Source of the DNA: a virus
Direction: 5' to 3' (one strand)
IMG/VR virus record: IMGVR_UViG_3300032562_000004
Span: 1 to 64,000 of that record
Length of the DNA: 64,000 nt
The notes under the pieces are model-generated. The model saw only the letters and a list, made by a program, of their open reading frames with translations. It was not told the origin of the DNA and did no database searches. Shown here piece by piece: positions 1 to 63,225 of the stretch. The position numbers and the translations under genes were made by a program. Each line of letters begins with the position of its first letter. Position 1 is the first letter of the stretch.

Positions 1-221
1 GCCTCCTTAGCCCACCTAATATGGTCATCGCACTGCCACTTAATCTTGTCATGGCTAAGCTCAACGTGCTCGTTGGCAATAGACTGTAGTACCTGTTTCA
101 ATGCTTCTATTTTAGCTTGTTGCTGGCGTAGCATTTCAATAGCTTGTTTAACTGCTGGTAAATACCCAACAGAAAGCATCTTTTCAAACTCCTTTAAATC
201 AGCTAGTTCATTTGCGTTCAT
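1..221 (-). CDS. Small coiled-coil protein, 3' end cut by window edge
   Basis: The frame opens at ATG 221 and stays open to the window edge, so only the first 73 codons are visible. The N-terminus MNANELAD is the same as that of the gene at 1391-1705, and both continue into a Q/E/L-rich stretch with 'LRQQQA', so the two are paralogues. Function is not recognised. The predicted structure is a helical coiled coil. It starts 14 bp inside the end of the gene upstream, which fits operon translation. Confidence 0.6.
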   Translation of the reverse strand, partial: MNANELADLKEFEKMLSVGYLPAVKQAIEMLRQQQAKIEALKQVLQSIANEHVELSHDKIKWQCDDHIRWAKE

Positions 222-414
222 TTATGTCCCCACGTTCTAAAAAAATATTTATAGCGTTATTTGTTATTATTGATTCCTTTTCGTTACCGTCTAAGTCTAC
301 ATAAATAATATTTTTACCGTCAAACTTTATATGCCCTTCGTGGAGGATTAAATCGTATTGGTCTTGGGCTAAAAAGCTAAGCATAATTGGTTTCACTACG
401 TCATAAGTTGTCAT
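208..414 (-). CDS. Hypothetical protein, 68 aa
   Basis: ATG 414 overlaps the stop of the SWIM-domain gene upstream (ATGA), and its 3' end overlaps the next gene's start. The protein mixes beta-type segments (near 'GKNIIYVDLDG') with a helical C-terminus. No family is recognised. Confidence 0.55.
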   Translation of the reverse strand: MTTYDVVKPIMLSFLAQDQYDLILHEGHIKFDGKNIIYVDLDGNEKESIITNNAINIFLERGDINERK

Positions 415-37888: not shown

Positions 37889-38608
37889 TTAAAACTTGGT
37901 TCCTTCAAAATCCATCCAATAAGTGGCCATTTTACCTTTACCTTCAAGTAAGTAAAAAGGTAGAGTATGGATTAAACCCCGACTGGAGTTATAGTATATC
38001 AGGTCTTTAGGTCCACGGTCAAGCGAAAATGCAAAATGTGTTGTTCCTGTATCACCCCCGATAAAGATTTCGGCAGTCTGGATATGGTTGATATTTTCCA
38101 TGAAGCCAAAACTATATTTGAAATGTATTGGAATCAATTCTTCATGGCCAAATGGATATTTACCAACACAGATAAGTTTTTCGTAATCATCATATTCTGG
38201 CGCACTATACTTATTACAAATGGTTTCAAGTAATTTTGGTGGCCAATTTCTGTAGGTATTATAAGGCGCATCAAACAATGGAAAAATAACAATCTTCTTT
38301 TCCATTTCTAATTTGTTTGGAACTGTTACTAAATCTCCAGAGATATCTCTAAAGTCCCAAACATTCACTCTACGCCATGGCAGAGTTTCTTGTCCTTCGA
38401 AATCAGAAAAGTAATTAGTTACCAATAAAAGAAATGTATAAAATTCCTGTACATATTTCTCAGAACTTATTGCTTCCGGCTTTAAATGAAATCGAATCTG
38501 TGGATTATTATTAGTTTTTCTAATATGTTCCAATACATTACAGACACCAAGTAAATCACCATTGCGTAATGGTCCACCAAAAGTACCAGGTTCAATATTA
38601 ATAATCAA
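37889..38608 (-). CDS. GT9/heptosyltransferase-like protein, 239 aa
   Basis: Start is TTG 38608, 7 bp behind GGAGG and overlapping the upstream stop (TTGA). 'EIFIGGDTGTTHFAFSLD' matches the donor-binding D-x-G-x-x-H motif of heptosyltransferase-type (GT-B) enzymes, and 'IVIFPLFDAPYNTYRNWP' the usual strand with W-P. With the next gene it may form a two-part sugar transferase. Confidence 0.6.
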   Translation of the reverse strand: MIINIEPGTFGGPLRNGDLLGVCNVLEHIRKTNNNPQIRFHLKPEAISSEKYVQEFYTFLLLVTNYFSDFEGQETLPWRRVNVWDFRDISGDLVTVPNKLEMEKKIVIFPLFDAPYNTYRNWPPKLLETICNKYSAPEYDDYEKLICVGKYPFGHEELIPIHFKYSFGFMENINHIQTAEIFIGGDTGTTHFAFSLDRGPKDLIYYNSSRGLIHTLPFYLLEGKGKMATYWMDFEGTKF

Positions 38609-39348
38609 AGTAGTGCCTCCAAATCTTTAGCGTGAACTAGTTTTGCTTTACGGTTCAAATAGAAATGTTTTTCAAATACTTTATTGATATCCTTACCATC
38701 GTCCCAAGATACATTATCACCTACACGGAACTCAGGTTTCCAATCTTCTGCTTTCCATACACAATAAAGTGGAACATTACAGAGGTCTGCCAACATACCG
38801 ACACCAGTAAAATTGGTGATAAATGGTTTCTTTAGATTCTTAATGATGTAAGCATTGGTCAACATATCATTATCAAAATTAATAAACTCACAATCTTTTA
38901 AATAAGATAATACATGAGTTTCTCTACGATTATCAATCTCACCAACCGCCCATCTATCACCAACATAATAGGCATCTTTAATTTCAATATCCATCTCTGG
39001 TGTTAATACAACAAATTTATCATTTACTTCAAACATCAAATCATATTTGTCCCTTAACCAATTCTCATATCGACAGGTTTCAATCGGTCTATCAGGATCA
39101 CCTTTAGTTTCACGGCTTGGCCACGAACTTAATTGAATCATATCGCCATAAGGAATGATATCATCATCAAATTCAACATCAGAAAACAAATCTTGGTACA
39201 TTAAGAATTCTTTAATGCCTTTAAATTTCTTCGTTGAACCTTTGAGTATCAAAGAATATTTACCATATGATTTAGTAAGACCTGACAACACAGGCATTGT
39301 GTTTAAAAAATCACCAAGGTTAGCAGTTCCAGTTACATAAATTTTCAT
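38605..39348 (-). CDS. GT9-like glycosyltransferase, 247 aa
   Basis: 'MKIYVTGTANLGDFLNTMPV' resembles the N-terminal G-x-x-G-D-x-L-x-x-x-P motif of ADP-heptose:LPS heptosyltransferases, and 'FITNFTGVGMLADLCNVPLY' the C-terminal donor region. Likely acts on surface or virion glycan. Overlaps the neighbour downstream by 4 bp. Confidence 0.6.
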   Translation of the reverse strand: MKIYVTGTANLGDFLNTMPVLSGLTKSYGKYSLILKGSTKKFKGIKEFLMYQDLFSDVEFDDDIIPYGDMIQLSSWPSRETKGDPDRPIETCRYENWLRDKYDLMFEVNDKFVVLTPEMDIEIKDAYYVGDRWAVGEIDNRRETHVLSYLKDCEFINFDNDMLTNAYIIKNLKKPFITNFTGVGMLADLCNVPLYCVWKAEDWKPEFRVGDNVSWDDGKDINKVFEKHFYLNRKAKLVHAKDLEALL

Positions 39349-40139
39349 TTACTAAATTCCTTAAAAGCAACAAACCAGTCCTGTTCGGAAACTGGATGTA
39401 ATTCAAACAATTCGGGTTTCAACAAATAGGACATTAACAATAAAGTTTGGTCATCATCAACCAATCCATTCTTGACCAATTCATCCATACTATGAGCAAC
39501 CAACTTCTGTAATGTTGGCCAATTCTCTTTGCTAGCAACAATCATTGGTCCTGTAATATGTACATCGTTGTTGGCAATAACATCTTGAATGATAGTGCCT
39601 TCTTGCCAATCTTTAATATTGAATAAATGAATTTTATCTTTATCAAATGGATAACTCCAAACTTGAACATCATTTAAGGTTACTTCATCACGACAATAAC
39701 CAAAATCGAGCCACGCAATTAAATCATTATTAATTGTGTTTCGTCTAATAGCCTCAACAACAAAACTAGATTTTAGTGCGTTTACGATAACATAATCAGC
39801 ATTCCAATATTCTGGATTGCGTACTTGCATGGGATTTATTTTTGCTTGATATTCTGGATCCTGTTGAACTTTGGAAACCATTTCACGGAAAACACTAAAA
39901 GATTCTTTAAAGTCCATCGTGATAATATCTGTTGGTCTATCTTCTCTTAACTCTTTAATTTTATCGACCATATCGGCTGATGTAAATATGGTCATTTCAT
40001 TTTCGAGTTTGGCCATGTGACCAAATCTTTGCAAATAAGTTTCTGTTGTTCGTTGTAGATAGTGTGGAAGATTTTTATCTGGTGTCCATTCACCACGACC
40101 AATATCAAAGAAGGCCGTTACGATGCTAATTTCACTCAT
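39345..40139 (-). CDS. HtrL/YibB-type glycosyltransferase-like protein, 264 aa
   Basis: ATG 40139 (MSEISIVTAFFDIGRGEWTP) overlaps the upstream stop. 'VTAFFDIGRGEW' is the signature start of the HtrL/YibB/WlaTC family, associated with LPS or surface sugar assembly. 'WLDFGYCRDE' likely carries the metal-binding acidic residues. Confidence 0.7.
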   Translation of the reverse strand: MSEISIVTAFFDIGRGEWTPDKNLPHYLQRTTETYLQRFGHMAKLENEMTIFTSADMVDKIKELREDRPTDIITMDFKESFSVFREMVSKVQQDPEYQAKINPMQVRNPEYWNADYVIVNALKSSFVVEAIRRNTINNDLIAWLDFGYCRDEVTLNDVQVWSYPFDKDKIHLFNIKDWQEGTIIQDVIANNDVHITGPMIVASKENWPTLQKLVAHSMDELVKNGLVDDDQTLLLMSYLLKPELFELHPVSEQDWFVAFKEFSK

Positions 40140-40864
40140 ACCCAATAATACCTTTTATAATTATTAACAATTTCAATGTGGATTGGCTGACTCATAACAA
40201 AATCATCATAATCATATCCATCATTCTTATGGTGGTGTGTATCCGTCAAATAAGGATTAACACTATAATCTTTTCCACACAACATATAATAAACTACCAT
40301 ATAACAATCCATGAATCCTAATGGCTGATAGTGAATCTGAAACCAATCATGATTCTTTTTAAACCATTCGGTTACTTTATCATAGTTCTCTAAGAATGTT
40401 GATACTTTAAATATTGAACCTCCACCACAACCATATTGATTTGTGATTGGTTTCTTTCCAGAGAAATCTGTTATACTACCTATGATATCATCAGGAATTA
40501 TATTACCAATTTTGATATCATGTCCTGCCATTTCCCAAGTAGAATCAACTGTGATTGGTTTTTTAATCCAAACATCGTCTTCCATCATCATTATATGTGA
40601 TGTTGGTGCTTGTTGGCAAGCAGCTCTAAATCTATCCAACCATTGTAATGTTTTGTCGGCATCATAACTTGGATAACCTAATTTAGAAACTGAACGAATG
40701 TAATCACAGTTATATTTTTCAGCAATATCAGATAAATCATCTGCTGCATCCGACAATAACATATAATAGGAATCAGGATGGTGTTTACGGACTTGTTCTA
40801 CAACTTTTTCAGTAGAAACTTTTTTGCCTGCTGAGGCAAGATGGCAAAAAGAAATATCAGGCAT
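40136..40864 (-). CDS. GT-A fold glycosyltransferase, 242 aa
   Basis: 'HIMMMEDDVWIKKPI' supplies the D-x-D-type metal site (E-D-D) of a GT-A enzyme, preceded by a nucleotide-binding first half ('SYYMLLSDAADDLSDIAEKY'). 'NQYGCGGGSIFKVSTFLENY' would be the acceptor loop. Sugar and acceptor unknown. Confidence 0.65.
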   Translation of the reverse strand: MPDISFCHLASAGKKVSTEKVVEQVRKHHPDSYYMLLSDAADDLSDIAEKYNCDYIRSVSKLGYPSYDADKTLQWLDRFRAACQQAPTSHIMMMEDDVWIKKPITVDSTWEMAGHDIKIGNIIPDDIIGSITDFSGKKPITNQYGCGGGSIFKVSTFLENYDKVTEWFKKNHDWFQIHYQPLGFMDCYMVVYYMLCGKDYSVNPYLTDTHHHKNDGYDYDDFVMSQPIHIEIVNNYKRYYWV

Positions 40865-41423
40865 ATTTTACCCAAAAGATAATACTATCGGTCATATTTG
40901 AAGGTTCTCTGAGGTCAACAACACCACAAACCATATTAGGTGGAACTAAAGTTCTATAATCTTCTGTCCATTCCATTTGACCAATATCTTCAATAATAAA
41001 CATACCACCACGGTTTAACTTTGGTAAATATAAACTAAGTGATTGTAAATGACTTTTTTTGGTGTGAGGACCATCATCAATGATAATATCAAAATTAGGC
41101 AAAGAATCGGCAAACTCTTTTTTATATCCGTCAGCGTAAATTATTTTAACTCGTGGATAAGGTTCACAATTTGTTTTTGCACCAAAATCATATGGGTCTA
41201 CACCATAGAGGTCAGCATTAGGAAAGTAATGATGCCAAAGTGCCATACTTCCGCCACGATGAATTCCTAATTCTAATAAACGAATATTTTTATCTTGATA
41301 TGGCAAAAGAGCTTCATCATAGAAACCACTACAATATTTGTGGTTAAATTCTTTATCTGTACCAAATTCATAATGTGTATCATTACGAATATTATACTTA
41401 ATCATAATATCAACTAAACTCAT
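40857..41423 (-). CDS. Class I SAM-dependent methyltransferase, 188 aa
   Basis: 'IRLLELGIHRGGSMALWHHY' is motif I (E/D-x-G-x-x-x-G), 'ADLYGVDPYDFG' motif II, and 'FDIIIDDGPHTKKSHLQSL' the post-II acidic strand typical of the cephalosporin-hydroxylase/macrocin O-methyltransferase-like group. It probably methylates a sugar made by the surrounding genes. Confidence 0.7.
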   Translation of the reverse strand: MSLVDIMIKYNIRNDTHYEFGTDKEFNHKYCSGFYDEALLPYQDKNIRLLELGIHRGGSMALWHHYFPNADLYGVDPYDFGAKTNCEPYPRVKIIYADGYKKEFADSLPNFDIIIDDGPHTKKSHLQSLSLYLPKLNRGGMFIIEDIGQMEWTEDYRTLVPPNMVCGVVDLREPSNMTDSIIFWVKYA

Positions 41424-42436
41424 TACATTAACCTATCTTTCCATGTTTTAGGTGTTTTATCTGATACAATTTCCAATGGATATGTATAGTCGAAAGGTTT
41501 AGGTCCTTTCTTCTTAACATACGCCACGGTTTCTTGAATGGCTTTTCTTAAATCTGTTTTAGTTTCATAATTTAATAATTTACGAGCTTTATCTGCTGAA
41601 CAAGAAGCGTGTTTAACTTCTCTTGGTCGGTCTGGCATATGAATTGGTGGCCATGTGTTATCTTTTCTCATATCACACTCTTTATTCACCAAAGCAGCCA
41701 ACTCAGCAATAGTAATTGTACCTTCATCAGGTCCAATGTTAATAATCTCACTCTTAATTTTTGGATCTAATGCCATTTTTTCTAAACAATTAATACAGTC
41801 ACTAACATAAGAAAAACAACGAGTTTGTTTACCATCGCCATAAATGATTGCAGGTTTACTTTGCAAATTACGATTAATCATAATACTCATAACATTACGG
41901 AACGGATCATCATAACGCTGACGAGGACCAACAATATTATGTGGCACAGCAATATTCCATTCCATACCATGAGTTTCACAAAGAGCTTTTAATACTTCTT
42001 CACCAGCAACTTTAGCTATGCCATACGGATCTACAGGTCTAGGAGTCATTTTTTCATGGAATGGTGCCTTTTGGTCACCATATCGTGCCATAGATGTGCA
42101 ATAAACAAATCTTTTTACTTTATTTTGGATTGCTGCAGAAATAGTAGATACACTTGCTTCAAAAATATTTCGTGTAATGAAACTAGGAGAGAATACAGAC
42201 AGTCCTTCATGTGCCGTTGCGGCAGTATGAATAACGATATCACAACCTTCCATAGCATAGGTCATCTTTTCATTATCACAACAATCAATGATAAAAAGTT
42301 TTGCTTTTTTTGGAACATTATCACGATAACCACCAATCAAGTTATCATTACCAATAACTTCATGTCCAAGTTCAATCATTCTATCAGCAAGATGGCTACC
42401 TAGAAATCCTGCTAGTCCAGTAATAAAAATTTTCAT
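41423..42436 (-). CDS. NAD-dependent epimerase/dehydratase, 337 aa
   Basis: Rossmann motif 'FITGLAGFLGSHLADRMIEL' (G-x2-G-x2-G), 'VIHTAATAHEGLSVFS', 'YCTSMARYGDQ' with Ser, catalytic Y-x3-K in 'DPYGIAKVAGEE'. Full-length GalE/Gne/WbpP-like enzyme (about 340 aa). It converts a nucleotide sugar for the adjacent glycosyltransferases. Confidence 0.85.
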   Translation of the reverse strand: MKIFITGLAGFLGSHLADRMIELGHEVIGNDNLIGGYRDNVPKKAKLFIIDCCDNEKMTYAMEGCDIVIHTAATAHEGLSVFSPSFITRNIFEASVSTISAAIQNKVKRFVYCTSMARYGDQKAPFHEKMTPRPVDPYGIAKVAGEEVLKALCETHGMEWNIAVPHNIVGPRQRYDDPFRNVMSIMINRNLQSKPAIIYGDGKQTRCFSYVSDCINCLEKMALDPKIKSEIINIGPDEGTITIAELAALVNKECDMRKDNTWPPIHMPDRPREVKHASCSADKARKLLNYETKTDLRKAIQETVAYVKKKGPKPFDYTYPLEIVSDKTPKTWKDRLM

Positions 42437-42963
42437 TATACTCTCTTAATCAAAGTCATTCCATTGCAATTTGTTCTTCGTTCAACTAATTGCCATTGTG
42501 GATTAGTATCCAAGAATTCTTGAATCGCTTTCCATACACCTCCTTCACCACCTTGGCCACGTGCACCAAATAATTCTGTATCATGGAATAATATATATTT
42601 GCTCACCTTATCAGCATGTAAATCTAATTCACCTTTTACTTGTTCATATGAATGATAACTATCCACAAGCATAATATCTGTTGGTGCAATTTCAGTTTCT
42701 AATGTAGAACAAACATGAAGTGTAACATTTCTACCAGCGGCTCTCGCTTCGTTAAAGAATTGAGTAGTAACCTCATAAGGTGAAATTTCGTAACTATGAA
42801 GTTCTACATCTTGCCTTAAAAATCCTCTGGTACTTTGTGCATATCCAACACCAAGTTCAGTCGCATGTTTACACTCAGAAGTTAGTTCTGAAATCCATGG
42901 TAAATGCTCGTGCATATCGGTTGGTCTGGCACAAGCATCTAAGTATTCTTGTTCAAAGTTCAT
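42436..42963 (-). CDS. SAM-dependent methyltransferase, 175 aa
   Basis: ATG 42963 sits 1 bp after the upstream stop; a longer frame with 20 more residues starts inside that gene. 'CKHATELGVGYAQSTRGFL' is motif I (E-L-G-V-G), 'VELHSYEISP' motif II, and 'TDIMLVDSYHSYEQVKGEL' the D-x-x-H strand of a Methyltransf_24-like enzyme. Likely a sugar O-methyltransferase. Confidence 0.65.
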   Translation of the reverse strand: MNFEQEYLDACARPTDMHEHLPWISELTSECKHATELGVGYAQSTRGFLRQDVELHSYEISPYEVTTQFFNEARAAGRNVTLHVCSTLETEIAPTDIMLVDSYHSYEQVKGELDLHADKVSKYILFHDTELFGARGQGGEGGVWKAIQEFLDTNPQWQLVERRTNCNGMTLIKRV

Positions 42964-42964
42964 T

Positions 42965-43801
42965 TTATGTACTGTATATAAATAATTGTGATTCATCTTC
43001 TTGTCCATATTTTTCTTGGACAAACTTCTTTAAAACTGGTACCCTATCGTATTGGTGTACAATTGGAAAAACTTTATCGGTATAATCTTTTAAAATACCA
43101 TCTTCAAAAAATGGTTCAACGATAAGTAGATTTGGCCTAAACTGTTCAATCTTGGATGGATCCATGATTGTTCCTAACTCAGCAGCCCATTGTGTTGTTT
43201 TAGTTACAACATCTTTAAACGGTTGTGTGTTGATTAGAACATTGAATACTGCTTGGTCTACGATAGGAATTGGTCGGTTGATTCCGTTTGTGAAAATATG
43301 AAACACCATATCTTTTACATATTCTGATTTACCACCAAAGGTTCCTACATTAAAGATTTCATTGTTTTTAAATTTATCATACACATATGGACCATAAGCT
43401 TGATATAAATTCTCATTACCCCAAGGTTCGTCTTTATATTTCAAACCTTCAGATGCAATAACCAATTTACGGTCAACTAAGAATTTAAATGGATCTGTTT
43501 GAAAATAAACATCTTTAACATCAGTAGTAACAACATATTGATAATCAAACCAATGATTTTCTAGATATTCATAGATTGATAAAAATCGTAACACATGGAT
43601 CGGTATGTTTTGTACTTGTAACATGGGAACAACAACTACTCCTTGTTCTACCAACCAATCTAGTGTTTCATCTGAAGCGTTACCATAAACCAAAACAACA
43701 TCATTATCACCAGCAACTTCTTTTGCTGAGATAACCCAAGGTTTTAATTGGTTAATGTTATAGTTTGTGAACCCGCCGATGATGAGATTTTTTTGCGCCA
43801 T
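42965..43801 (-). CDS. GT-A type glycosyltransferase, 278 aa
   Basis: 'YVVTTDVKDVYFQTDPF' has the D-x-x-D metal site, 'IFNVGTFGGKSEYVKDM' the acceptor-side loop, and 'PIVDQAVFNVLI' the conserved D-Q pair. The pattern fits eukaryote-like sugar transferases found in aquatic phages. ATG 43801 with GGAG; overlaps the upstream gene by 58 bp. Confidence 0.65.
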   Translation of the reverse strand: MAQKNLIIGGFTNYNINQLKPWVISAKEVAGDNDVVLVYGNASDETLDWLVEQGVVVVPMLQVQNIPIHVLRFLSIYEYLENHWFDYQYVVTTDVKDVYFQTDPFKFLVDRKLVIASEGLKYKDEPWGNENLYQAYGPYVYDKFKNNEIFNVGTFGGKSEYVKDMVFHIFTNGINRPIPIVDQAVFNVLINTQPFKDVVTKTTQWAAELGTIMDPSKIEQFRPNLLIVEPFFEDGILKDYTDKVFPIVHQYDRVPVLKKFVQEKYGQEDESQLFIYST

Positions 43802-44505
43802 GGGAATTCTCCATTATATTTTTGATTCATTACATTATTTCCATTGATAAAGAAATCGGCAGTAACCGAACCTTTACCGCCATCAACACGATAGTTTACG
43901 GTATACTCACCTGTACAATCGAATTTCTTAAAGTGCTGAGCAACGACACTCAGGAACACTCTATCTTGTCCCCAACCACCATGCCAACAACTTGCTATTT
44001 TAACAGCAATCTCTGTCTTGAGGCAATATGAATTGGTATCCACATGGTTCACTCCATGGTAAGTTTGCCATTTACCTAAAGATTCACAATCATCATGGCA
44101 AACAAATGTACCATCCTTATTGTATACGTCACGCAAAGAATAACACCAATCAAGATTCTTTTCTTTGATTGTGTTGATACAAGTTTCAACGTGATTTGGT
44201 TTTAACCAATTATCTTGGTCGAGATATAATACATATTCTGTATTAATTAAATGAGTGAAAGCGGCATAGACACGGTGTCCGTAGAATCCATTGGCGCCCA
44301 CATTGGTTGGTAAACTACATAGAGTAATGTTCTTGTATTTCGGATGCTTTTCAAATTGTTTAATATGGTTCTTGATAGCGTAAACAAATTCAGGACCATC
44401 ACAAACAATATAACATTTAGTTTCGTATGTTTGGTCTAATACCGATTTAATAGCTTCATGTACTGGTGCAGCGACAGTAGTTGGTATAATCACAGTTGCG
44501 GACAT
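43744..44505 (-). CDS. Family 2 glycosyltransferase, 253 aa
   Basis: 'MSATVIIPTTVAAPVHEAIK' then 'VLDQTYETKCYIVCDG' is the GT2 N-terminus, and 'YVLYLDQDNWLKPNHVE' the D-x-D metal site. 'GGWGQDRVFLSVVAQHF' contains the catalytic-region D. It transfers a sugar to an unknown acceptor. Confidence 0.8.
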   Translation of the reverse strand: MSATVIIPTTVAAPVHEAIKSVLDQTYETKCYIVCDGPEFVYAIKNHIKQFEKHPKYKNITLCSLPTNVGANGFYGHRVYAAFTHLINTEYVLYLDQDNWLKPNHVETCINTIKEKNLDWCYSLRDVYNKDGTFVCHDDCESLGKWQTYHGVNHVDTNSYCLKTEIAVKIASCWHGGWGQDRVFLSVVAQHFKKFDCTGEYTVNYRVDGGKGSVTADFFINGNNVMNQKYNGEFPWRKKISSSAGSQTITLTN

Positions 44506-54219: not shown

Positions 54220-54498
54220 ATGGATTTTTTTAAGATAGTTGCCGAATTAGGATTCCCTATGGCTGCCGCTTTTGCAGCTGGGTATTTCGTATTCCTAACT
54301 CTTAAATTCATTCTGGCTGGTGTTACTGGCCAAGTCAAAAGTCTGAGCGGTATTATTACCGCCTTGGACAATCGTGTTAAAACAATGAACCATGATGTTA
54401 TCAGAATTGATACCCTAATGTCGAGCGCTATGGGTGTTAAACCTGATGTTGACCGTATTGCTCGTGCTGATGGTAAAAACGATGCTCGGAGAGATTAA
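54220..54498 (+). CDS. Small membrane protein A of the curli-like cassette, 92 aa
   Basis: MDFFKIVAELGFPMAAAFAA then 'GYFVFLTLKFILAG' is one long membrane helix; the rest is an amphipathic helix ending in a charged tail. It is a clear paralogue of the next protein (M-D-hydrophobic..., G-F-P, G-Y-F, then 'DRV/DNR' helices). No good ribosome binding site is visible before ATG 54220. It could be a holin-like, anchor or chaperone subunit for CsgG/CsgF; family not recognised. Confidence 0.65.
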   Translation: MDFFKIVAELGFPMAAAFAAGYFVFLTLKFILAGVTGQVKSLSGIITALDNRVKTMNHDVIRIDTLMSSAMGVKPDVDRIARADGKNDARRD

Positions 54499-54782
54499 TG
54501 GATTTAGTTGAATTAGTAAACAAATATGGTTTTCCAATTGTTGCAGCTGGCGGCATGGGTTATTTTATATATTATGTTTGGACTTGGGTAACCAAAGAAA
54601 TTAAGCCAGTTTTGAGTGAAGCAAGTACAGTATTAATTGCTTTGATTGACCGTGTTAGAATGTTAGATAATGATTTGATTAGATTGAATCAGAAAATTAA
54701 CATTGTATTAATGATGCGAGAAATTAAAGAAGATGAAAAGACTAAAAAGACTAATACTGATACTGCTAACACTTACCGTTAA
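54498..54782 (+). CDS. Small membrane protein B of the curli-like cassette, 94 aa
   Basis: MDLVELVNKYGFPIVAAGGM followed by 'GYFIYYVWTWVTKEI' repeats the layout of protein A: one membrane helix, then a helical cytosolic or periplasmic part and a Lys/Thr-rich end. ATG 54498 overlaps the upstream stop (TAATG) and has GGAGAG. Tandem duplication with divergence is evident. Confidence 0.65.
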   Translation: MDLVELVNKYGFPIVAAGGMGYFIYYVWTWVTKEIKPVLSEASTVLIALIDRVRMLDNDLIRLNQKINIVLMMREIKEDEKTKKTNTDTANTYR

Positions 54783-55197
54783 TTCAGCATATTCTGCACC
54801 ACTTAACGATTTTACATTCAAATCTCCATCATTCAATGGTAATGGTTATGGCACTTATGTTCTAACCATTCAAAATGAGGAGTATACACGAGCTCAAGCA
54901 ATTCAGCAAGCCCTATTGGCGGCACAACAACAGGCAAAGACTGATGCAGCCAACACACCACTTAATCAATTTCTGGTTAATTTAGAATCTCGTATTTACG
55001 CACAAATTTCACAAAATCTTGCTACAGCAATGTTTGGTTCAGGTTCTTCCACACAAGGTACAATGAACTTCCAAGGCAACACAATCAGTTATGTTAATCA
55101 AGGAAGTAACATTCAATTAACTGTTACCGATAATCTTGGTAACCAAACAGTCATTAATGTACCAATTGGGCAATTTAATATTACAGGACAACCATGA
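54733..55197 (+). CDS. csgF: CsgF-like curli assembly factor, 154 aa
   Basis: A signal peptide (cleavage near 'SAYSA') precedes 'LNDFTFKSPSFNGNGYGTYV', which matches the CsgF N-terminus (F-x-F-x-N-P-x-F-G-G-N) that plugs into the CsgG pore. 'SRIYAQISQNLATAMFG' corresponds to the CsgF middle helix and 'GSNIQLTVTDNLGNQTVINV' to its C-terminal strands ('LQLNVTDRKTGQTSTIQV' in E. coli, from memory). CsgF sits at the outside mouth of CsgG and nucleates curli fibres. The start lies 50 bp inside the upstream gene. Confidence 0.85.
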   Translation: MKRLKRLILILLTLTVNSAYSAPLNDFTFKSPSFNGNGYGTYVLTIQNEEYTRAQAIQQALLAAQQQAKTDAANTPLNQFLVNLESRIYAQISQNLATAMFGSGSSTQGTMNFQGNTISYVNQGSNIQLTVTDNLGNQTVINVPIGQFNITGQP

Positions 55198-56063
55198 AAA
55201 AAGTATTGTTAATTGTTTTGGTTGCAATGTTGTCTGGTTGTGCTATGTTACAAAAAAGTGGACAATTAACGGGAATTGAACATGAACCAAAAGTAGCGGA
55301 AAACAAACTTCAAAAAGAGTTTGATAGAGTTCCACCACCTAAAGGTGCTCATATTACTGTTGCCGTGTATTCATTTCAAGATAAAACCGGCCAACGTAAA
55401 GCAGTATCAACATATGCTAGTTTTAGTACCGCAGTTACGCAAGGCGCTGAACCATTTTTAATTAAAGCATTACAAGATGTTGGTAGTGGTACATGGTTTG
55501 ATGTTGTTGAACGTGTTAATGTGGAAAATTTAATTAAAGAAAGAACCATCATTAAGCAAATGCGTGATGCTTATGAAGGTCCTAAAGCACAACAATTAGC
55601 ACCATTACAGTTCGCTGGTATCATCATGGAAGGTGGTATCATTGGTTATGATTCTAGTACTGAATCTGGTGGACTTGCATATCGTTGGTTAGGCATTGGA
55701 CCACAGACACAATATAGTAAAGATATAGTTACAATCAGTTTACGAGCAGTTAGTGTGAGCTCAGGTAAGGTATTGGCAACGGTAACTGTTACAAAAACAG
55801 TTTACTCAACTGCCGATAGTTTTGCTATGTTAAAGTTCTTTAATGACGGAACTCAGGCCTTTGAGGCTGAATCAGGTTTAACAATCAATGAACCTGGAAC
55901 ATTAGCGGTGAAAGCAACCGTGGAAGCCGCAGTAGTTGAATTAATTAAAGAGGGACAAAGACGAGGTATTTGGGAATTTAGATATCCAATGCCTGAGGAC
56001 AAACCTTGGTGGAAATTTGGAAATGTTCAAACAACACAAAAGGAAGAAAAAAATGAAAAGTAA
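55194..56063 (+). CDS. csgG: CsgG-like outer-membrane curli secretion channel, 289 aa
   Basis: Lipobox 'VAMLSGCAMLQ' (C16) and then 'PPPKGAHITVAVYSFQDKTG' with 'KALQDVGSGTWFDVVERVNV', the hallmark CsgG region, 'FAGIIMEGGIIGYDSSTESG' and 'KDIVTISLRAVSVSSGKVLA' (barrel hairpins). Length (E. coli 277) and order fit the family. CsgG is a nonameric lipoprotein pore that exports curli subunits. Coupled to csgF by ATGA. Confidence 0.92.
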   Translation: MKKVLLIVLVAMLSGCAMLQKSGQLTGIEHEPKVAENKLQKEFDRVPPPKGAHITVAVYSFQDKTGQRKAVSTYASFSTAVTQGAEPFLIKALQDVGSGTWFDVVERVNVENLIKERTIIKQMRDAYEGPKAQQLAPLQFAGIIMEGGIIGYDSSTESGGLAYRWLGIGPQTQYSKDIVTISLRAVSVSSGKVLATVTVTKTVYSTADSFAMLKFFNDGTQAFEAESGLTINEPGTLAVKATVEAAVVELIKEGQRRGIWEFRYPMPEDKPWWKFGNVQTTQKEEKNEK

Positions 56064-56883
56064 ATTAACAAGCTTTGTTATGGGTTTGTTGGTTGCGTTC
56101 AACGTAGCAGCTGCAGACAATAGTATCTATATTGACCAATCCGGAAATAGTTCTACGGTTAGCATTACACAAGATGGTGCAGGTAATATAGTTCAAGGTA
56201 TTCAAGGCACCGGAACAAGTAGCACAACACCAGCAACAATCTATGGTGATAGTAATCAAGTTACTATCAACCAAGTGGGCACAGGAGATACTGTTAGTTT
56301 TGGTATCAAAACATCTGTGGCTAATGGTGTGAGTGGTGGAAACAATTTTAGTTATTCGATTAATGGTAACAACTCTAACGCTGTTATCGATTCAAATAAC
56401 GATGGTCAAGGAGTATCAGCAAGTAATACTGTTACAGTCAATCAAACCGGCAACAATTCCAATGCTAATATTAATGTGTTGGGTTCACAAAATACTGTTA
56501 CCGCTACAACAACAGGTGGTGCTAGCAATAGTGTGGTTTCAACCATAGATGGAAATAGCAACTCACAAACTATTAATGTGTCTGGTGGTGGTTCTAACTC
56601 TATTACTGTTGAACAAGGTATTGGGGGTTCAGCTCTAACCGGTAATGCAACAACGCAAAATAATAGTAATGGTTCTGTAAATTTAACTGTTGTTGGTGCA
56701 AGTAATACTGTGGCAATTGGTCAAACCAGTTCAGGTTCTTATCAAAATACCACAGTTGTTTCTTTAACTGGTTCTAGTGATAATGTAAACATATTACAAA
56801 ATGCATCTGCAGGTAACACTACTGTAAACTTGCAATCTGTTGGTAGTAGTAATACATTTACCATACACAGCAACGCACACTAA
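56053..56883 (+). CDS. Curlin-like repeat protein A, 276 aa
   Basis: ATG 56053 has AAGGAAG; a signal peptide ends near 'NVAAADN'. The mature protein repeats N-x-V/I-x-I-x-Q-x-G-x2-N units ('SIYIDQSGNSSTVSITQDG', 'SNQVTINQVGTGDTVSF', 'SNTVTVNQTGNNSNANINVL'), the curlin amyloid repeat pattern of CsgA/CsgB, but over about 250 residues, roughly twice CsgA. Probable export substrate of the phage-encoded CsgG. Asn, Ser, Thr, Gly and Gln dominate; Cys and charged residues are nearly absent. Confidence 0.8.
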   Translation: MKSKLTSFVMGLLVAFNVAAADNSIYIDQSGNSSTVSITQDGAGNIVQGIQGTGTSSTTPATIYGDSNQVTINQVGTGDTVSFGIKTSVANGVSGGNNFSYSINGNNSNAVIDSNNDGQGVSASNTVTVNQTGNNSNANINVLGSQNTVTATTTGGASNSVVSTIDGNSNSQTINVSGGGSNSITVEQGIGGSALTGNATTQNNSNGSVNLTVVGASNTVAIGQTSSGSYQNTTVVSLTGSSDNVNILQNASAGNTTVNLQSVGSSNTFTIHSNAH

Positions 56884-58001
56884 TGAAACATGTTTTATTA
56901 TGTGTTCTATTGATATCGTTTAATTGTTATGCTGGAATTGGGACAGTCACCGAACAGGTGAATGCTCCCGGTTCTATTGTTCGTTCTAACAAATCAATGC
57001 CAGCTGCCAAAGGTACTGGTGTTGAAATGAACGATACCGTCAATACAACCAAAGGTAAAGTTGAAATAACTTTTGCCGATGATACTAAAGTTGAGGTTAA
57101 CGAAAACTCAAAATTGGTTATTGACGATTTCGTTTATGATGCTAAATCTTCTAAGAATAGTAAATTGGCCATGAAGTTTGCTTCAGGTACAGTTCGTTAT
57201 GCCTCTGGTGCAATCGCACATAACAATCCCAATGCAGTAGCACTCAATACACCATCAACAACTATTGCTGTTCGTGGTACCGATTTCACAGCAACCGTGG
57301 ATGAAGGAGGTGCTTCTACTGTTATTCTTTTACCTTCTTGTCCAAAAGTATGGGTTGATATTGAAAGAGATTGTAAAACAGGAGTAATTGATGTTATTAA
57401 TGATGCTGGTATGGTAACACTCAACAAACCATTTCAAGGCACTAAAGTTGAAAGTCGTAATGTGGCACCAATGAAACCTGTTGTTCTTTCTTTGACTGCT
57501 GATACAATTAACAATCTTCTTATTGTTGCTCCACCAAAAGAATTAAATAAAGATAAACTTGAAAATAAAAGTACTATAGTTATTAATTCTGCCAACATGT
57601 TAGCAGTTAATTTTTTAAAACAAGATTTTTTAAAGAATGAATTGGCAGACCAAACTCCTTATGGTGATAATCCATTAACCAAACCATTACTTGAACAATA
57701 CTTCTTGGCCAACATTTTTGATATTTTAGCGCAGCAGTTACAAGAGGAACAAATGGGTTTATTGGCCAATTTATTAACCCCACAAAATACGTTGTTACCG
57801 GATTATAAAAAAGAAACTGGTGTAGTAACTTCTATTGGCGTATCTACTGTTGGTTTATGTCGTAATGACGGAAGTAATATGCAATGTGTTACTGTACCAA
57901 AGTCAGAAAATGCCACTATATATCAACAACAAGGTTCGGTTGATATTCGTAACAGAGTAAATAGTGGCGGTAACACAATCATAACATTAAAGCAAAATTA
58001 A
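56883..58001 (+). CDS. FecR-domain secreted protein, 372 aa
   Basis: A signal peptide (MKHVLLCVLLISFNCYAGIG) precedes a FecR domain: 'GTGVEMNDTVNTTKGKVEIT', 'FADDTKVEVNENSKLVIDDF', 'MKFASGTVRYASG', then 'NTPSTTIAVRGTDFTATVDE'. In bacteria, such secreted FecR proteins often sit beside CHASE2-cyclase genes or large surface proteins. The remaining 190 residues are helical with a Cys pair. Start overlaps the upstream stop (TAATG). Confidence 0.85.
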   Translation: MKHVLLCVLLISFNCYAGIGTVTEQVNAPGSIVRSNKSMPAAKGTGVEMNDTVNTTKGKVEITFADDTKVEVNENSKLVIDDFVYDAKSSKNSKLAMKFASGTVRYASGAIAHNNPNAVALNTPSTTIAVRGTDFTATVDEGGASTVILLPSCPKVWVDIERDCKTGVIDVINDAGMVTLNKPFQGTKVESRNVAPMKPVVLSLTADTINNLLIVAPPKELNKDKLENKSTIVINSANMLAVNFLKQDFLKNELADQTPYGDNPLTKPLLEQYFLANIFDILAQQLQEEQMGLLANLLTPQNTLLPDYKKETGVVTSIGVSTVGLCRNDGSNMQCVTVPKSENATIYQQQGSVDIRNRVNSGGNTIITLKQN

Positions 58002-58588
58002 TGAAATTTTTAATTATCCTTTTTTTAATATCAGGCCTTGGACAATGTTCATACATCAAAGCCGCAGATAATACCATTGCAATAGACCAAGTTGGTAGTA
58101 ATAATCAATACACAATTTCACAAGATTATACAGGAAATTCTGTTGATATTTCGATTGGAAAATCATCAGCAAGCGATAATAATGTTATCGGAATTACACA
58201 AGGTGGATTTGGTCAACAAACATCAAGTATTAAAATACCTGGTGGCATTAATAATACCGTTTCAATTACTCAAAACGGAGTAGGTAATATGGTTGCAACA
58301 GTAGATAATATGAATGGTTCTGCAAACAATATTACTATTAATCAGGGTGGGGCAAGTAACAATACAATGAACATTATTGGTGGTACAGGAACAACAAACA
58401 ATGCAAATACGATTAATACAACTCAATTCGGAAATGCAGGTGCAGATAAATCCTTCACACTAAATATGAATGGTACAAATGGTGCCAATGTTACAGTACA
58501 ACAAACGAATCCAACTCAATCAAATACCGGTTCAATGAGTATTCAATGTTACACCAATTGTGGTAGTTATAGTTACATAAGAAACTAA
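58001..58588 (+). CDS. Curlin-like repeat protein B, 195 aa
   Basis: Signal peptide (cleavage near 'IKAADN'), then curlin-type units 'NTIAIDQVGSNNQYTISQ', 'NNVIGITQGGFGQQ', 'NNTVSITQNGVGN', 'NNITINQGGASNN'. The C-terminus has two Cys ('QCYTNCGSY'). The mature start (ADN-T/S-I-x-I-D-Q) is the same as in protein A, so both are related; by analogy one may be a nucleator (CsgB-like) and the other the fibre subunit. TAATG coupling to fecR. Confidence 0.75.
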   Translation: MKFLIILFLISGLGQCSYIKAADNTIAIDQVGSNNQYTISQDYTGNSVDISIGKSSASDNNVIGITQGGFGQQTSSIKIPGGINNTVSITQNGVGNMVATVDNMNGSANNITINQGGASNNTMNIIGGTGTTNNANTINTTQFGNAGADKSFTLNMNGTNGANVTVQQTNPTQSNTGSMSIQCYTNCGSYSYIRN

Positions 58589-58589
58589 T

Positions 58590-60602
58590 ATGAAAATACT
58601 GAAGAAATTATTACTCTCTCCATGGACAGCAATATTAACACTCATATTATTGGTATGTATTCGTGTATCAGATCCTTCATTTGTTGAGTCGGTAAGACTT
58701 CGTTATTTTGATACTGTTATATCTTCAAAATCTATTACCACATCACAAATAAGTGTTGTGAATATTGATGATTTTACAATAGAAAAAAAAGGTCAATTTC
58801 CTTTTCCTAGAGGACAATATGCAAAAATTATTCAAGATTTGTATCAACGTAATGCTGGTCTTGTTGTGTTTAATGTTTTCATGCCTGATAGCGATAGGTT
58901 TTTTCAGGATAGTATATTGGCTAACACACTCAGGAAATATCCAGTAGTTTTACCACAAATTGGTTCTACCGATAAACCCAATAAAATAATTCCTTTTAGA
59001 CCAGGTGTTTCAGTAATCGGAGAAGGCAGTGCAGGCGTTATATATAATTCTATCCAACCTAATGTGAAAGAATTAAATGAGACGGCTGCTGGCATTGGCA
59101 TTGTTAATACTCTCCCCGAAATTGATGGCGTCACCAGACGAGTGCCTATGGTGGTACAATCCGGTAACGGCTTGCTTTACCCTGCAATCTCTCTTGAATC
59201 CCTTCGAGTTGCCTCTGGAGACCCAAGTTTTCAAATCAAACTCGGAGAAACAGGAATACAAGCCCTCAGAATTCCTAAATTTGGAAAAATCACAACCGAC
59301 CCAATTGGAAGGATATGGGTCGATTGGTCCAGTAAACCCACAGAATATTCCTTCTCCAACTTACCAAAGGATTTTGGAGGTTCCATCGTCATCGTTGGAC
59401 TCACAGCAAAAGGCCTCAACAATCCGGTTGCAACTTCAGTCGGTGCCGTCTATCCTCATTACCTACAAGCAGCAGTTCTAGACACCTTAATCTCAGGTAC
59501 AAACATCTCCAGACCAGACTGGTCAGACGGAGCAGAGTTATTATACACAATTGCACTTTGTATAATAGCAATTTTCTTTACAAGGTATACACATGGTTAC
59601 ATCGCAATCATCATTATGGGAATTGCATCCTATGTACTTGGCCATGAATCATTCAATCGATATAATTACTTACTTGATGTTACTTTCCCACTTCTCACCA
59701 TTACTCTTGTTTTCGCACATGGCTACGTTATCAAATTCCTGTCGGAATTAAAACAAAAACTCCAAATTAAAAAACAATTTGGAACATATTTAAGTCCCGC
59801 TTTAGTAGAAAAACTCCAAAAAAATCCAGAATTGTTGGTTCTTGGTGGAGAATCCAGAGAACTTTCTATTATGTTTACTGATGTTCGTGGTTTCACAACA
59901 ATTTCAGAACATTATGGTAAAGATGTGCAAGGTTTAACTAAGATTATGAATCGTTATATGACTGCAATGACCGCAAAGATTATTGAAAATAACGGCACTC
60001 TGGATAAGTACATTGGAGATGCTCAGATGGCATTTTGGAACGCACCTCTAGATGAACCTAATCATGCTAAGATGGCTGTGAAAACTGCAATACAAATGAT
60101 GGAGAATTTAGATGAATTCAATAATGAAATTACTAAAGAGGGCATCCCAGCTTTTGGCATGGGTCTTGGCATTAATACTGGTACCGTTGTTGTTGGCAAT
60201 ATGGGTAGTAGCCAGCGTTTCGATTATACTTGTCTTGGAGATTCTGTTAATCTTGCATCCCGGCTTGAAGGTCAAAGTAAACCGTATGGTGTCAGAATGG
60301 TCCTCGGACCTGATACAGCTCTTCAAGTAAAAGATGAATATCCTGTTATTGAGTTAGATTGTATTGCTGTTAAAGGTAAAAAAGAAGGTGTGAAAATATT
60401 TACACTAGGCAAATCTAACTGGAAACATGAAGATTACCTTGATGCTTATTACACAGGTGATTGGGATAAAGCGATAGGTCATTGTAAGACCTTGATTGAA
60501 GAAGGTGGAGAGTTAAAACAATACTACGAAAATATGTTGGAAAGACTACAAGAAGGAGTTCCATCCGATTGGGATGGAACCTATAGAGCAACTTCTAAGT
60601 AA
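58590..60602 (+). CDS. CHASE2 sensor-class III adenylate cyclase, 670 aa
   Basis: A first membrane helix (about residues 7-27) leads to a periplasmic CHASE2 domain ('ISVVNIDDFTIEKKGQFPFP', 'VVLPQI', 'SGTNISRPDWSDGAELL'), then three helices (about 310-385) and a cyclase domain from about 420. Catalytic residues are all visible: metal Asp D431 ('MFTDVRGFTT') and D477 ('KYIGDAQMAFW'), adenine-selecting K473 and T547 ('DYTCLGDSVN'), transition-state N554 and R558 ('NLASRLEG'). K plus T indicates ATP, hence cAMP. A full-length sensor cyclase in a phage is very unusual. Confidence 0.93.
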   Translation: MKILKKLLLSPWTAILTLILLVCIRVSDPSFVESVRLRYFDTVISSKSITTSQISVVNIDDFTIEKKGQFPFPRGQYAKIIQDLYQRNAGLVVFNVFMPDSDRFFQDSILANTLRKYPVVLPQIGSTDKPNKIIPFRPGVSVIGEGSAGVIYNSIQPNVKELNETAAGIGIVNTLPEIDGVTRRVPMVVQSGNGLLYPAISLESLRVASGDPSFQIKLGETGIQALRIPKFGKITTDPIGRIWVDWSSKPTEYSFSNLPKDFGGSIVIVGLTAKGLNNPVATSVGAVYPHYLQAAVLDTLISGTNISRPDWSDGAELLYTIALCIIAIFFTRYTHGYIAIIIMGIASYVLGHESFNRYNYLLDVTFPLLTITLVFAHGYVIKFLSELKQKLQIKKQFGTYLSPALVEKLQKNPELLVLGGESRELSIMFTDVRGFTTISEHYGKDVQGLTKIMNRYMTAMTAKIIENNGTLDKYIGDAQMAFWNAPLDEPNHAKMAVKTAIQMMENLDEFNNEITKEGIPAFGMGLGINTGTVVVGNMGSSQRFDYTCLGDSVNLASRLEGQSKPYGVRMVLGPDTALQVKDEYPVIELDCIAVKGKKEGVKIFTLGKSNWKHEDYLDAYYTGDWDKAIGHCKTLIEEGGELKQYYENMLERLQEGVPSDWDGTYRATSK

Positions 60603-62031: not shown

Positions 62032-62105
62032 TGGTTGCGGATCCTGGAGTTGCACCAAGAACTAAAGATTATGAGTCTTTTGTGATTCTATTTCACCAAT
62101 CCGCT
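62032..62105 (-). tRNA. tRNA-Met (CAT), degenerate
   Basis: Cloverleaf with encoded CCA: anticodon arm AAAGA-CTCATAA-TCTTT, D stem GTG/CAC, T stem CTTGG/CCAGG. The first acceptor pair is A-A (mismatch), the D loop lacks the usual GG, and the T loop reads TGCAACT. The 1:72 mismatch recalls initiator tRNA, but the three G-C pairs of an initiator anticodon stem are absent. A modified CAT (Ile) identity is possible. Confidence 0.75.
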
Positions 62106-62161
62106 GTTATATTTTACTAAATGGATTATGAAGTTAATCATAATACTATAAAGGACTTTAA

Positions 62162-62524
62162 ATGTTAAATTGTGTCATATGTTCAAATAAACTTAAAGGT
62201 AAACAAACAAAATTTTGTAGTTTGCCTTGTAAAAATACTTCTACAAACTTGAAAAATCAATCCTATACAAACCAAAGAGAAAGAGGATTAGATGTTAAAA
62301 CCAAATTAATTAAATTAAAAGGATCTTGTTGTTCAGTATGTGGTTACAATAAAAATTATGCTGGTCTTTGTTTCCATCACCTAAAAGATAAAAATTTTCA
62401 AATAGATATGAGAAGATGTTCCAATACAAAATGGGAAATTTTGGTCGAAGAAGTTGAAAAGTGTATGCTACTTTGTCACAACTGCCACATGGAAATTCAC
62501 TATCCTGTATATTCCATTATATAG
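62162..62524 (+). CDS. HNH endonuclease, 120 aa
   Basis: N-terminal zinc knuckles C4-x2-C7 and C19-x3-C23, then 'GSCCSVCGYNKNYAGLCFHH' (C-x2-C and H-H of the HNH core), 'KNFQIDM', and 'CMLLCHNCHMEIHYP' with the C-x2-C-H and final H. These are the features of a free-standing HNH homing-type nuclease. It is on the plus strand inside a minus-strand tRNA region, suggesting mobile entry. ATG 62162 has AAGGA. Confidence 0.88.
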   Translation: MLNCVICSNKLKGKQTKFCSLPCKNTSTNLKNQSYTNQRERGLDVKTKLIKLKGSCCSVCGYNKNYAGLCFHHLKDKNFQIDMRRCSNTKWEILVEEVEKCMLLCHNCHMEIHYPVYSII

Positions 62525-62525
62525 A

Positions 62526-62724
62526 CATTATTGAGAATACTGTTTCGTGTTTAAGATAATTCAACCGACCCTTTACAGGATTATTTCGGTATTATAGGTC
62601 TCTCCTGTGTTCGTCTTGCTGCGTCAGCATACAGCGTTCTCAGATACCTGAGGATTACTACCAGGATGATGTCCTTCCCTAACAGTTGGGATTGCTTACT
62701 CTTTTGCCCACATTCTCAATAATG
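62526..62724 (-). ncRNA. Candidate structured RNA of about 200 nt beside tRNA-Gly
   Basis: The segment has no open frame and is closed by a perfect 13-bp inverted repeat, CATTATTGAGAAT (62526-62538) with ATTCTCAATAATG (62712-62724). Inside, hairpins CTCAG/CTGAG, GCTG/CAGC and ACAGGA/TCCTGT are visible. Strand is inferred from the tRNAs. Its position recalls the stable RNAs of unknown function in the T4 tRNA cluster. No known riboswitch or intron core was identified. Confidence 0.45.
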
Positions 62725-62796
62725 GAGCGGGATATTGGAATTGAACCAATGACGAAAGGTTGGAAACCTTTAGTTTTACCACTAAACTAATCCCGC
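62723..62796 (-). tRNA. tRNA-Gly (TCC)
   Basis: Acceptor GCGGGAT/ATCCCGC, discriminator T, encoded CCA; anticodon arm AAAGG-TTTCCAA-CCTTT. It reads GGA/GGG, useful in an AT-rich genome. The CCA overlaps the inverted repeat of the RNA candidate by 2 nt. Confidence 0.93.
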
Positions 62797-62802
62797 AAAA
62801 AC

Positions 62803-62869
62803 TGGAGCGGTGGTCTGCTTTGCTCAGATAATCTAAGAGGGTATCTCAAATCGTGCTATCACACACCGC
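62803..62869 (-). ncRNA. tRNA-like element of 67 nt without T arm
   Basis: Ends pair GCGGTG/CACCGC and finish T-CCA, the same 3' end as tRNA-Gly (GCTCCA). A GTG/CAC three-pair hairpin stands where a D arm would, followed by a long hairpin (TTTG-AGATA / TATCT-GAG-CAAA). No GGTTCGA-type T arm and no clear anticodon loop. Either a decayed tRNA or a small tRNA-mimic RNA. Confidence 0.4.
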
Positions 62870-62926
62870 ATATTCAATACTATAACATTACTTATACACA
62901 AAGTCAATAACTTTATGTGGTAAATT

Positions 62927-63011
62927 TGGTGCATCAGGAAAGATTCGAACTTTCGTAGCCAGAGGCGATTGATTTACAGTCAATTGGTTTTAACCACTCA
63001 CCCACCGATGC
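62927..63011 (-). tRNA. tRNA-Tyr (GTA)
   Basis: Acceptor GCATCGG/CTGATGC with encoded CCA; anticodon arm ATTGA-CTGTAAA-TCAAT; long variable arm (CGCCTCTGGCTACG region) as expected for bacterial tRNA-Tyr; T arm GAAAG-TTCGAAT-CTTTC. Confidence 0.93.
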
Positions 63012-63016
63012 ATTTT

Positions 63017-63092
63017 TGGCTCCCCGAGCTGGGCTCGAACCAGCGACCTACGGATTAACAGTCCGGCGCTCTACCAACTGAGCTATCAGGGA
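63017..63092 (-). tRNA. tRNA-Asn (GTT)
   Basis: Acceptor TCCCTGA/TCGGGGA with one G-T pair, discriminator G and encoded CCA; anticodon arm CGGA-CTGTTAA-TCCG; canonical D loop GTTGGTAGA and T arm. Only 5 bp from tRNA-Tyr, so the two are co-transcribed. Confidence 0.95.
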
Positions 63093-63150
63093 ATAAAACA
63101 TTTATTATACTACACAAAAGAATTCCTGTCTAGTAACTTTTTGGTATACT

Positions 63151-63225
63151 TGGCATCCCGGTACGGATTCGAACCGCATCTTTTGGTTTTGGAGACCAAT
63201 GTGCTACCGTTAACACTACCGAGAA
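63151..63225 (-). tRNA. tRNA-Trp (CCA)
   Basis: Anticodon arm TTGGT-CTCCAAA-ACCAA, D stem GTG/CAC, T arm TGCGG-TTCGAAT-CCGTA, encoded 3' CCA. The first acceptor pair is a T-T mismatch. It is the first tRNA after the promoter at 63262-63290. Confidence 0.88.

Follow-up and report, generated by a model that had tools for sequence, protein, structure and literature searches.

The phage DNA studied here encodes an inner-membrane receptor enzyme, a CHASE2-class III adenylate cyclase, which probably provides the signalling function of a curli (type VIII secretion) cassette carried by the phage; phages have exchanged its catalytic domain as one unit at the linker to the sensor. The gene is the last of eight in a curli/FecR cassette and not a stand-alone receptor (Table 1). 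The window, that is, the whole stretch of 64,000 nucleotides analyzed, covers positions 1 to 64,000 of the virus record IMGVR_UViG_3300032562_000004, which is 235,812 bases long. Few studies deal with phage signalling receptors that have an intact enzyme, and it is an open question what use curli genes are to the phages of streamlined aquatic bacteria. Three publications are cited here by their accession numbers, PMC9599517, PMC7029224 and PMC9004378, which we take to be Wittmers et al. (2022), Zaragoza-Solas et al. (2020) and Buchholz et al. (2022), respectively. The speculations in print on phage curli are sibling capture (PMC7029224), a role of the curli pore in lysis (PMC9004378) and its timing, superinfection defence and nutrient import.

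Table 1. Positions of the cassette genes in the window, of the segments of the cyclase protein and of a related chromosomal operon.
Feature	Position	Strand	Remarks
Small membrane protein 1	54220..54498	+	92 aa, phrog_18771
Small membrane protein 2	54498..54782	+	94 aa, phrog_18771, conserved motif LIDRxRMLDNDLIRL
CsgF, curli assembly factor	54733..55197	+	PF10614 1.1e-15, signal-peptide-like start
CsgG, outer-membrane curli pore lipoprotein	55194..56063	+	PF03783 1.3e-45, lipobox LSGC
Curlin-repeat protein 1	56053..56883	+	PF07012 0.002, signal peptide
FecR-domain protein, predicted periplasmic	56883..58001	+	PF04773 4.8e-11, signal peptide
Curlin-repeat protein 2	58001..58588	+	PF07012 0.0016, signal peptide
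CHASE2-class III adenylate cyclase	58590..60602	+	670 aa, ATG start, Pfam + AlphaFold + Foldseek
Cyclase protein, predicted TM helix	aa ~6-27		
Cyclase protein, periplasmic CHASE2	aa ~30-310		
Cyclase protein, three predicted TM helices	aa ~312-397		
Cyclase protein, cyclase domain	aa 423-606		
Cyclase protein, helical C-terminal tail	aa 607-670		
Chromosomal operon with PycTM-like gene 3', Caulobacteraceae MAG	L084:5998-13090		

The cyclase gene is part of a phage genome

The window encodes a T4-like DNA polymerase (phrog_262, E=0), which is about 50% identical to a Synechococcus myophage polymerase, as well as UvsX, a DnaB-like helicase and ribonucleotide reductase (RNR). That these T4-like replication genes share the window with the cyclase, on a virus record of this length, bears out the sequence-only reading in its claim that the cyclase is encoded by a phage. 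The gene is not a chance reading frame, since its nearest phage homologues are 80-86% identical over the full length and its cyclase domain has a dN/dS of 0.05-0.08. More than 500 relatives were found on viral contigs. CHASE2 cyclases occur in many Alphaproteobacteria (155 of 289 sampled genomes), as would suit an origin of the gene from mis-binned bacterial DNA, but the probability of such an error is negligible, given the replication genes that share the window and the many viral relatives; it is already refuted by the existence of the phage isolates HTVC008M and Melnitz, both of which carry the cyclase.

Inspection by eye of the remaining genome gave no clear hint as to the identity of the host. 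A run of glycosyltransferase-, methyltransferase- and sugar-nucleotide epimerase-like genes, also recognized by eye, forms a putative surface-sugar island at positions 37889-44505, and a cluster of five tRNA genes (Met, Gly, Tyr, Asn, Trp) adjoins the cassette at positions 62032-63224. Only tRNAs were recovered by Rfam at 50-64 kb, and the promoter scan gave no excess relative to shuffled sequences.

Domain structure and catalytic residues

The reading frame of the cyclase is uninterrupted by internal stop codons and has Pfam matches to CHASE2 (PF05226, aa 18-327, 5.1e-37, 128 bits) and to Guanylate_cyc (PF00211, aa 423-604, 6.1e-21, 75.3 bits as compared to a cut-off of 21.9). The CHASE2 domain reported by the sequence-only reading is thus present, and the catalytic residues that it listed were all found at the numbered positions: the metal aspartates D431 and D477, the adenine-selecting K473 and T547, and the transition-state N554 and R558. 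With a cyclase homology domain and all six metal, base and transition-state residues, the protein falls in class III (IIIb-like), and we take the K473/T547 pair to be the class IIIb adenylyl cyclase signature, as in CyaC and CyaB. The count of three membrane helices holds for the segment after CHASE2 (~312-330, 336-358 and 365-397), but hydropathy and the AlphaFold model predict four in total, with one more at the N-terminus (~6-27). The usual CHASE2 layout is one N-terminal transmembrane helix and three transmembrane helices after the domain, and here too CHASE2 lies between an N-terminal helix and those that precede the output domain.

The AlphaFold2 model of the protein, for which an alignment of 30 window and locus proteins served as input, had a mean pLDDT of 87.8. 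The best matches of the cyclase part among solved structures in Foldseek were CyaB (3r5g) and CyaC (1wc0/1wc1), at TM-scores near 0.85-0.90 when normalized by target length. The catalytic residues of the phage cyclase recur in the alignment to CyaB. The whole protein matched an uncultured phage protein in BFVD (TM 0.96, 60% identity). These results support an intact phage-encoded sensor cyclase of predicted adenylate type.

A cassette of curli genes that ends with the cyclase

The eight genes, whose arrangement as a cassette the sequence-only reading had overlooked, form a block on the plus strand in a stretch that is otherwise almost entirely on the minus strand, with the cyclase as the final gene. 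The conserved order of csgF, csgG, curlin repeats, fecR and cyclase is that of the curli/FecR/AC cassette of pelagiphages, which has been discussed together with its cyclase (PMC9599517). Both curlin matches have Pfam scores (18.5 and 18.8 bits) slightly under the curated cut-off of 20.7.

The surroundings of homologs were scanned from the cyclase, from csgG and from the small membrane proteins, and each scan rests on the best 80 loci, which are the closest to the query. Starting from the cyclase, 79 of these loci, including a few MAG contigs, had at least 5.5 kb of upstream sequence, and csgF was identified in 74, csgG in 75, fecR in 78 and the small pair in 73/74 of them. From csgG, 49 of the best 80 were viral loci whose downstream sequence extended for at least 8 kb; all had csgF and fecR and 47 had the cyclase, although a few of these cyclase counts could rest on a stand-alone homolog of the cyclase tail. 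Among the best 80 loci for small protein 2, those flanked on either side by at least 8 kb contained the cyclase and small protein 1 in 33 of 33 cases, fecR in 31 and csgG in 28. The small pair is located downstream of the cyclase on the opposite strand in several loci, and the link between the pair and the cyclase therefore outlasts rearrangement. In a set of 50,697 phage records, csgG, the cyclase and a small protein were found together only in the entries for Melnitz and HTVC008M; the remaining cyclase matches were partial and distant, and one 1.5-kb fragment of a Salmonella phage had csgG alone.

The stand-alone tail homolog is a protein of about 105 aa that is encoded just upstream of csgF and shows homology to profile positions ~570-670 of the cyclase, its C-terminal tail. 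It was observed at L230:8112-8411, L226:5968-6312, L254:8066-8476 and about ten more loci, and the copy in L230 had no match among the 50,697 phage records.

The position of the small pair matches that of a gene upstream of csgF that has been published as a "histidine kinase". Neither of the two proteins matched a kinase family in the Pfam and PHROG comparison, so the two upstream proteins do not correspond to the published description of the cassette in this respect. The homologs in HTVC008M and Melnitz are likewise small, and a length of about 92-94 aa leaves no room for a kinase core. The published "histidine kinase" may thus correspond to the small membrane pair; the identification is by gene order, and the published gene may differ.

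The catalytic domain is constrained

Excluding gaps, D431 was Asp in 239 of 239, K473 Lys in 240 of 240, D477 Asp in 240 of 240 and R558 Arg in 236 of 236 sequences in a set of 243 unique phage homologs. This invariance of the metal Asp, Lys and Arg residues across about 240 phage homologs is new in this analysis. The transition-state Asn is replaced by Ser in 50 homologs, to which the present cyclase does not belong, and activity may therefore differ in those proteins. In comparison with the nearest relatives (L004-L007), Nei-Gojobori estimates of dN/dS were lowest in the cyclase domain (0.05-0.08), higher in the sensor (0.14-0.19) and highest in the three-helix region (0.26-0.37), the last from few codons; the values are approximate because several dS estimates are near saturation. 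The cyclase is under strong purifying selection, and loss of function is judged from these patterns to be very unlikely. A protein that serves as a sensor or scaffold, with dispensable or degraded catalysis, would account for the 50 homologs with Ser, but it is hard to reconcile with the invariant catalytic residues and with a cyclase domain that is the most constrained part of the protein, and we regard it as highly improbable.

Three catalytic types and their exchange at the linker

Only three combinations of residues occupied positions 547 and 554 in the 243 homologs: TN (113), which includes the present cyclase, SN (74), which is a marine HTVC008M-like set, and DS (50), which includes Melnitz and is without the Asn that stabilizes the transition state. 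Each type is located on one side of a branch in the tree of the cyclase domain. For the 105 proteins of the TN and DS types, we counted a single change of type on the cyclase tree (aa 402-580) as compared to 19 on the sensor tree (aa 1-390), both of which were quick searches without bootstrap; at least 15 of the 19 changes are forced by branches with SH-aLRT values of at least 95.

The exchange can also be traced in pairs of closely related proteins. Identity in the pair L014/L038 drops from 86% in aa 1-390 to 58% in aa 402-580, and returns to 80-87% for the best two of the downstream genes. The corresponding values are 83% and 53% for L020/L051, and 97% and about 50% for L025/L080. An abrupt swap at aa ~398 is seen when L080:5768-7723 is compared to L025:8001-10070; an assembly chimera is possible for this pair only, since the L080 cyclase is at a contig end and the other pairs are internal. 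The 5' breakpoint coincides with the conserved KLQIKKQF, the last part of the helix linking membrane and catalytic domain, and in L020/L051 and L025/L080 the similarity recovers around ELDCIAVKGK, where the catalytic domain ends.

Sensor identity was weakly correlated with the identity of csgF (Spearman 0.08), csgG (0.21) and fecR (0.21), which indicates that recombination is general and extends beyond the cyclase. We also considered cyclase type as a marker of the partner genes, but at equal sensor identity it did not predict the similarity of csgF, csgG or fecR. What is distinctive is that discrete catalytic types are swapped at the sensor-cyclase linker and the rest of the receptor is kept. 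Judging from the trees and pairs, phages have repeatedly exchanged TN and DS catalytic halves under related sensors, of which we found no earlier report.

An old phage lineage and a bacterial operon

The sequence-only reading had called the receptor host-like and suggested a phylogeny against bacterial CHASE2 cyclases to date the acquisition. In that phylogeny, the phage cyclases and one protein from a Caulobacteraceae MAG (L084, CANGEH010000001) formed a single clade relative to 27 alphaproteobacterial CHASE2 cyclases (SH-aLRT 100). The phage clade is set off by long branches, which speaks against "host-like", and its long stems imply that the acquisition is not recent. The cyclase thus represents an old phage lineage rather than a recent pick-up from a host.

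The Caulobacteraceae MAG contains the order csgF-csgG-curlin-curlin-fecR-CHASE2 cyclase, with a cyclase that is 46% identical to the present one. In contrast to the phage loci, the contig is bacterial, with acyl-CoA dehydrogenase-like, TonB-receptor and S9-peptidase genes as neighbors; the small pair is absent, and a PycTM-like gene (PF18967 8.8e-25; PADLOC PycTM) is located 3' of the cyclase. This operon is a rare bacterial counter-example to a published statement. Neither fecR nor a cyclase was found near csgG in five other alphaproteobacterial csgG loci, and among the 399 genomes of the phylum sample a cyclase this close (E <= 1e-118) was present in none but this MAG (G001). The Caulobacteraceae protein is on a long branch and its exact placement is unsure; a transfer from phage to bacterium accounts for it as well as the reverse direction. 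The other five of the six matches on genome contigs (L085-L089) were not counted as bacterial examples. All of them have the phage-type arrangement where readable and some encode phage-like baseplate or tail proteins, as would be expected of phage contigs that have been binned into MAGs.

Signal and target

According to the explanation that we favor, in which the receptor enzyme serves the curli cassette, CHASE2 would read the envelope or curli-secretion state, probably via the co-encoded periplasmic FecR-domain protein, as gene order suggests. The state of the sensor would alter the signalling helix (KLQIKKQF) and set the activity of the cyclase dimer, and a homodimer-type cyclase would then make cAMP inside the infected cell. 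Counting against this explanation is that clumping was not seen in Melnitz cultures in the conditions employed (PMC9004378), and the proposed link between FecR and CHASE2 is based on gene order.

No cNMP-binding protein (PF00027) was found in the present record or in 15 further phage records with a cyclase, many of which are fragments, and the target is therefore either a host protein or an unrecognized phage partner. Because no phage receptor was found, we tentatively place the action of cAMP on a host cNMP-binding protein; the literature on SAR11 cAMP receptors offered nothing useful. The sequence-only reading had proposed that cAMP would reprogram CRP-type regulation in the host, which is possible, but the genes of the cassette direct attention first to curli secretion. 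That the product of a true cyclase reprograms CRP-family regulation generally, independent of curli, would agree with the intact adenylate-type site and the lack of a receptor in the phage records searched; it is nevertheless improbable in view of the near-invariant link of the cyclase to the curli cassette.

The best candidate for an unrecognized phage partner is the small membrane pair. The signal could stay in the cassette if the cyclic nucleotide acted in a Pycsar-like manner on this pair as a pore or as a lysis or exclusion effector, which is unlikely but has several observations in its favor. Among the best 80 loci, the pair accompanied the cyclase more consistently than csgG (33/33 as compared to 28/33), also where it is downstream on the opposite strand; the Caulobacteraceae operon has a PycTM-like gene 3' of the cyclase and no small pair; and no cNMP receptor was found in the phages. 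However, the pair, at about 92-94 aa per protein, showed no recognizable nucleotide-binding domain, PycTM is beside the cyclase in one locus only, and the K and T residues predict cAMP rather than a pyrimidine product. Distinctly unlikely is a self-contained second-messenger cassette, in which FecR and CHASE2 would read the state of curli or of the envelope, the cyclase would signal, the small pair would be the effector and catalytic alleles (TN, DS) would circulate. If this were true, the exchangeable alleles would perhaps differ in product or in escape from nucleotide-degrading enzymes of the host or of rival phages.

The cyclase is constrained and almost always takes its place in the cassette, which indicates that signalling by a cyclic nucleotide explains in part why phages carry curli genes. 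The swap of the catalytic domain, the reassessment of the "histidine kinase" and the bacterial operon each offer a direct test.

Comparison with known systems

The phage cyclase shares the class III cyclase fold with PycC of the Pycsar systems and has weak PADLOC matches to it, but differs in that K473 and T547 are of the adenylate type. Membership in Pycsar was considered and rejected, as only these weak shared-fold matches to PycC were found and a search with one sequence, the PycTM-like protein of the Caulobacteraceae operon, gave no homolog in the phage loci searched. The alphaproteobacterial CHASE2 adenylate cyclases have the same domain architecture and about 40% identity to the phage protein, but form a separate clade.

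The closest likeness is to two isolated phages. HTVC008M (KC465899) has the small pair, csgF, csgG, curlin, fecR, curlin and cyclase in identical order, with a cyclase annotated as "adenylate/guanylyl cyclase" that is about 39-41% identical to the present one. It differs in having a genome of 147,284 bases, as compared to the 235,812 bases of the present record, and a cyclase of the SN rather than the TN type that lacks the C-terminal tail. The gene order is also identical in the Methylophilales phage Melnitz (MZ577097), where the cyclase has the C-terminal tail, is 37-39% identical to the present one, and belongs to the DS type without the transition-state Asn. The novelty implied by the sequence-only reading does not stand, since the same gene in the same cassette was already annotated in both phages and discussed (PMC9599517). 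With the same cassette order and a cyclase in HTVC008M and Melnitz, the present gene joins a kind that has already been published.
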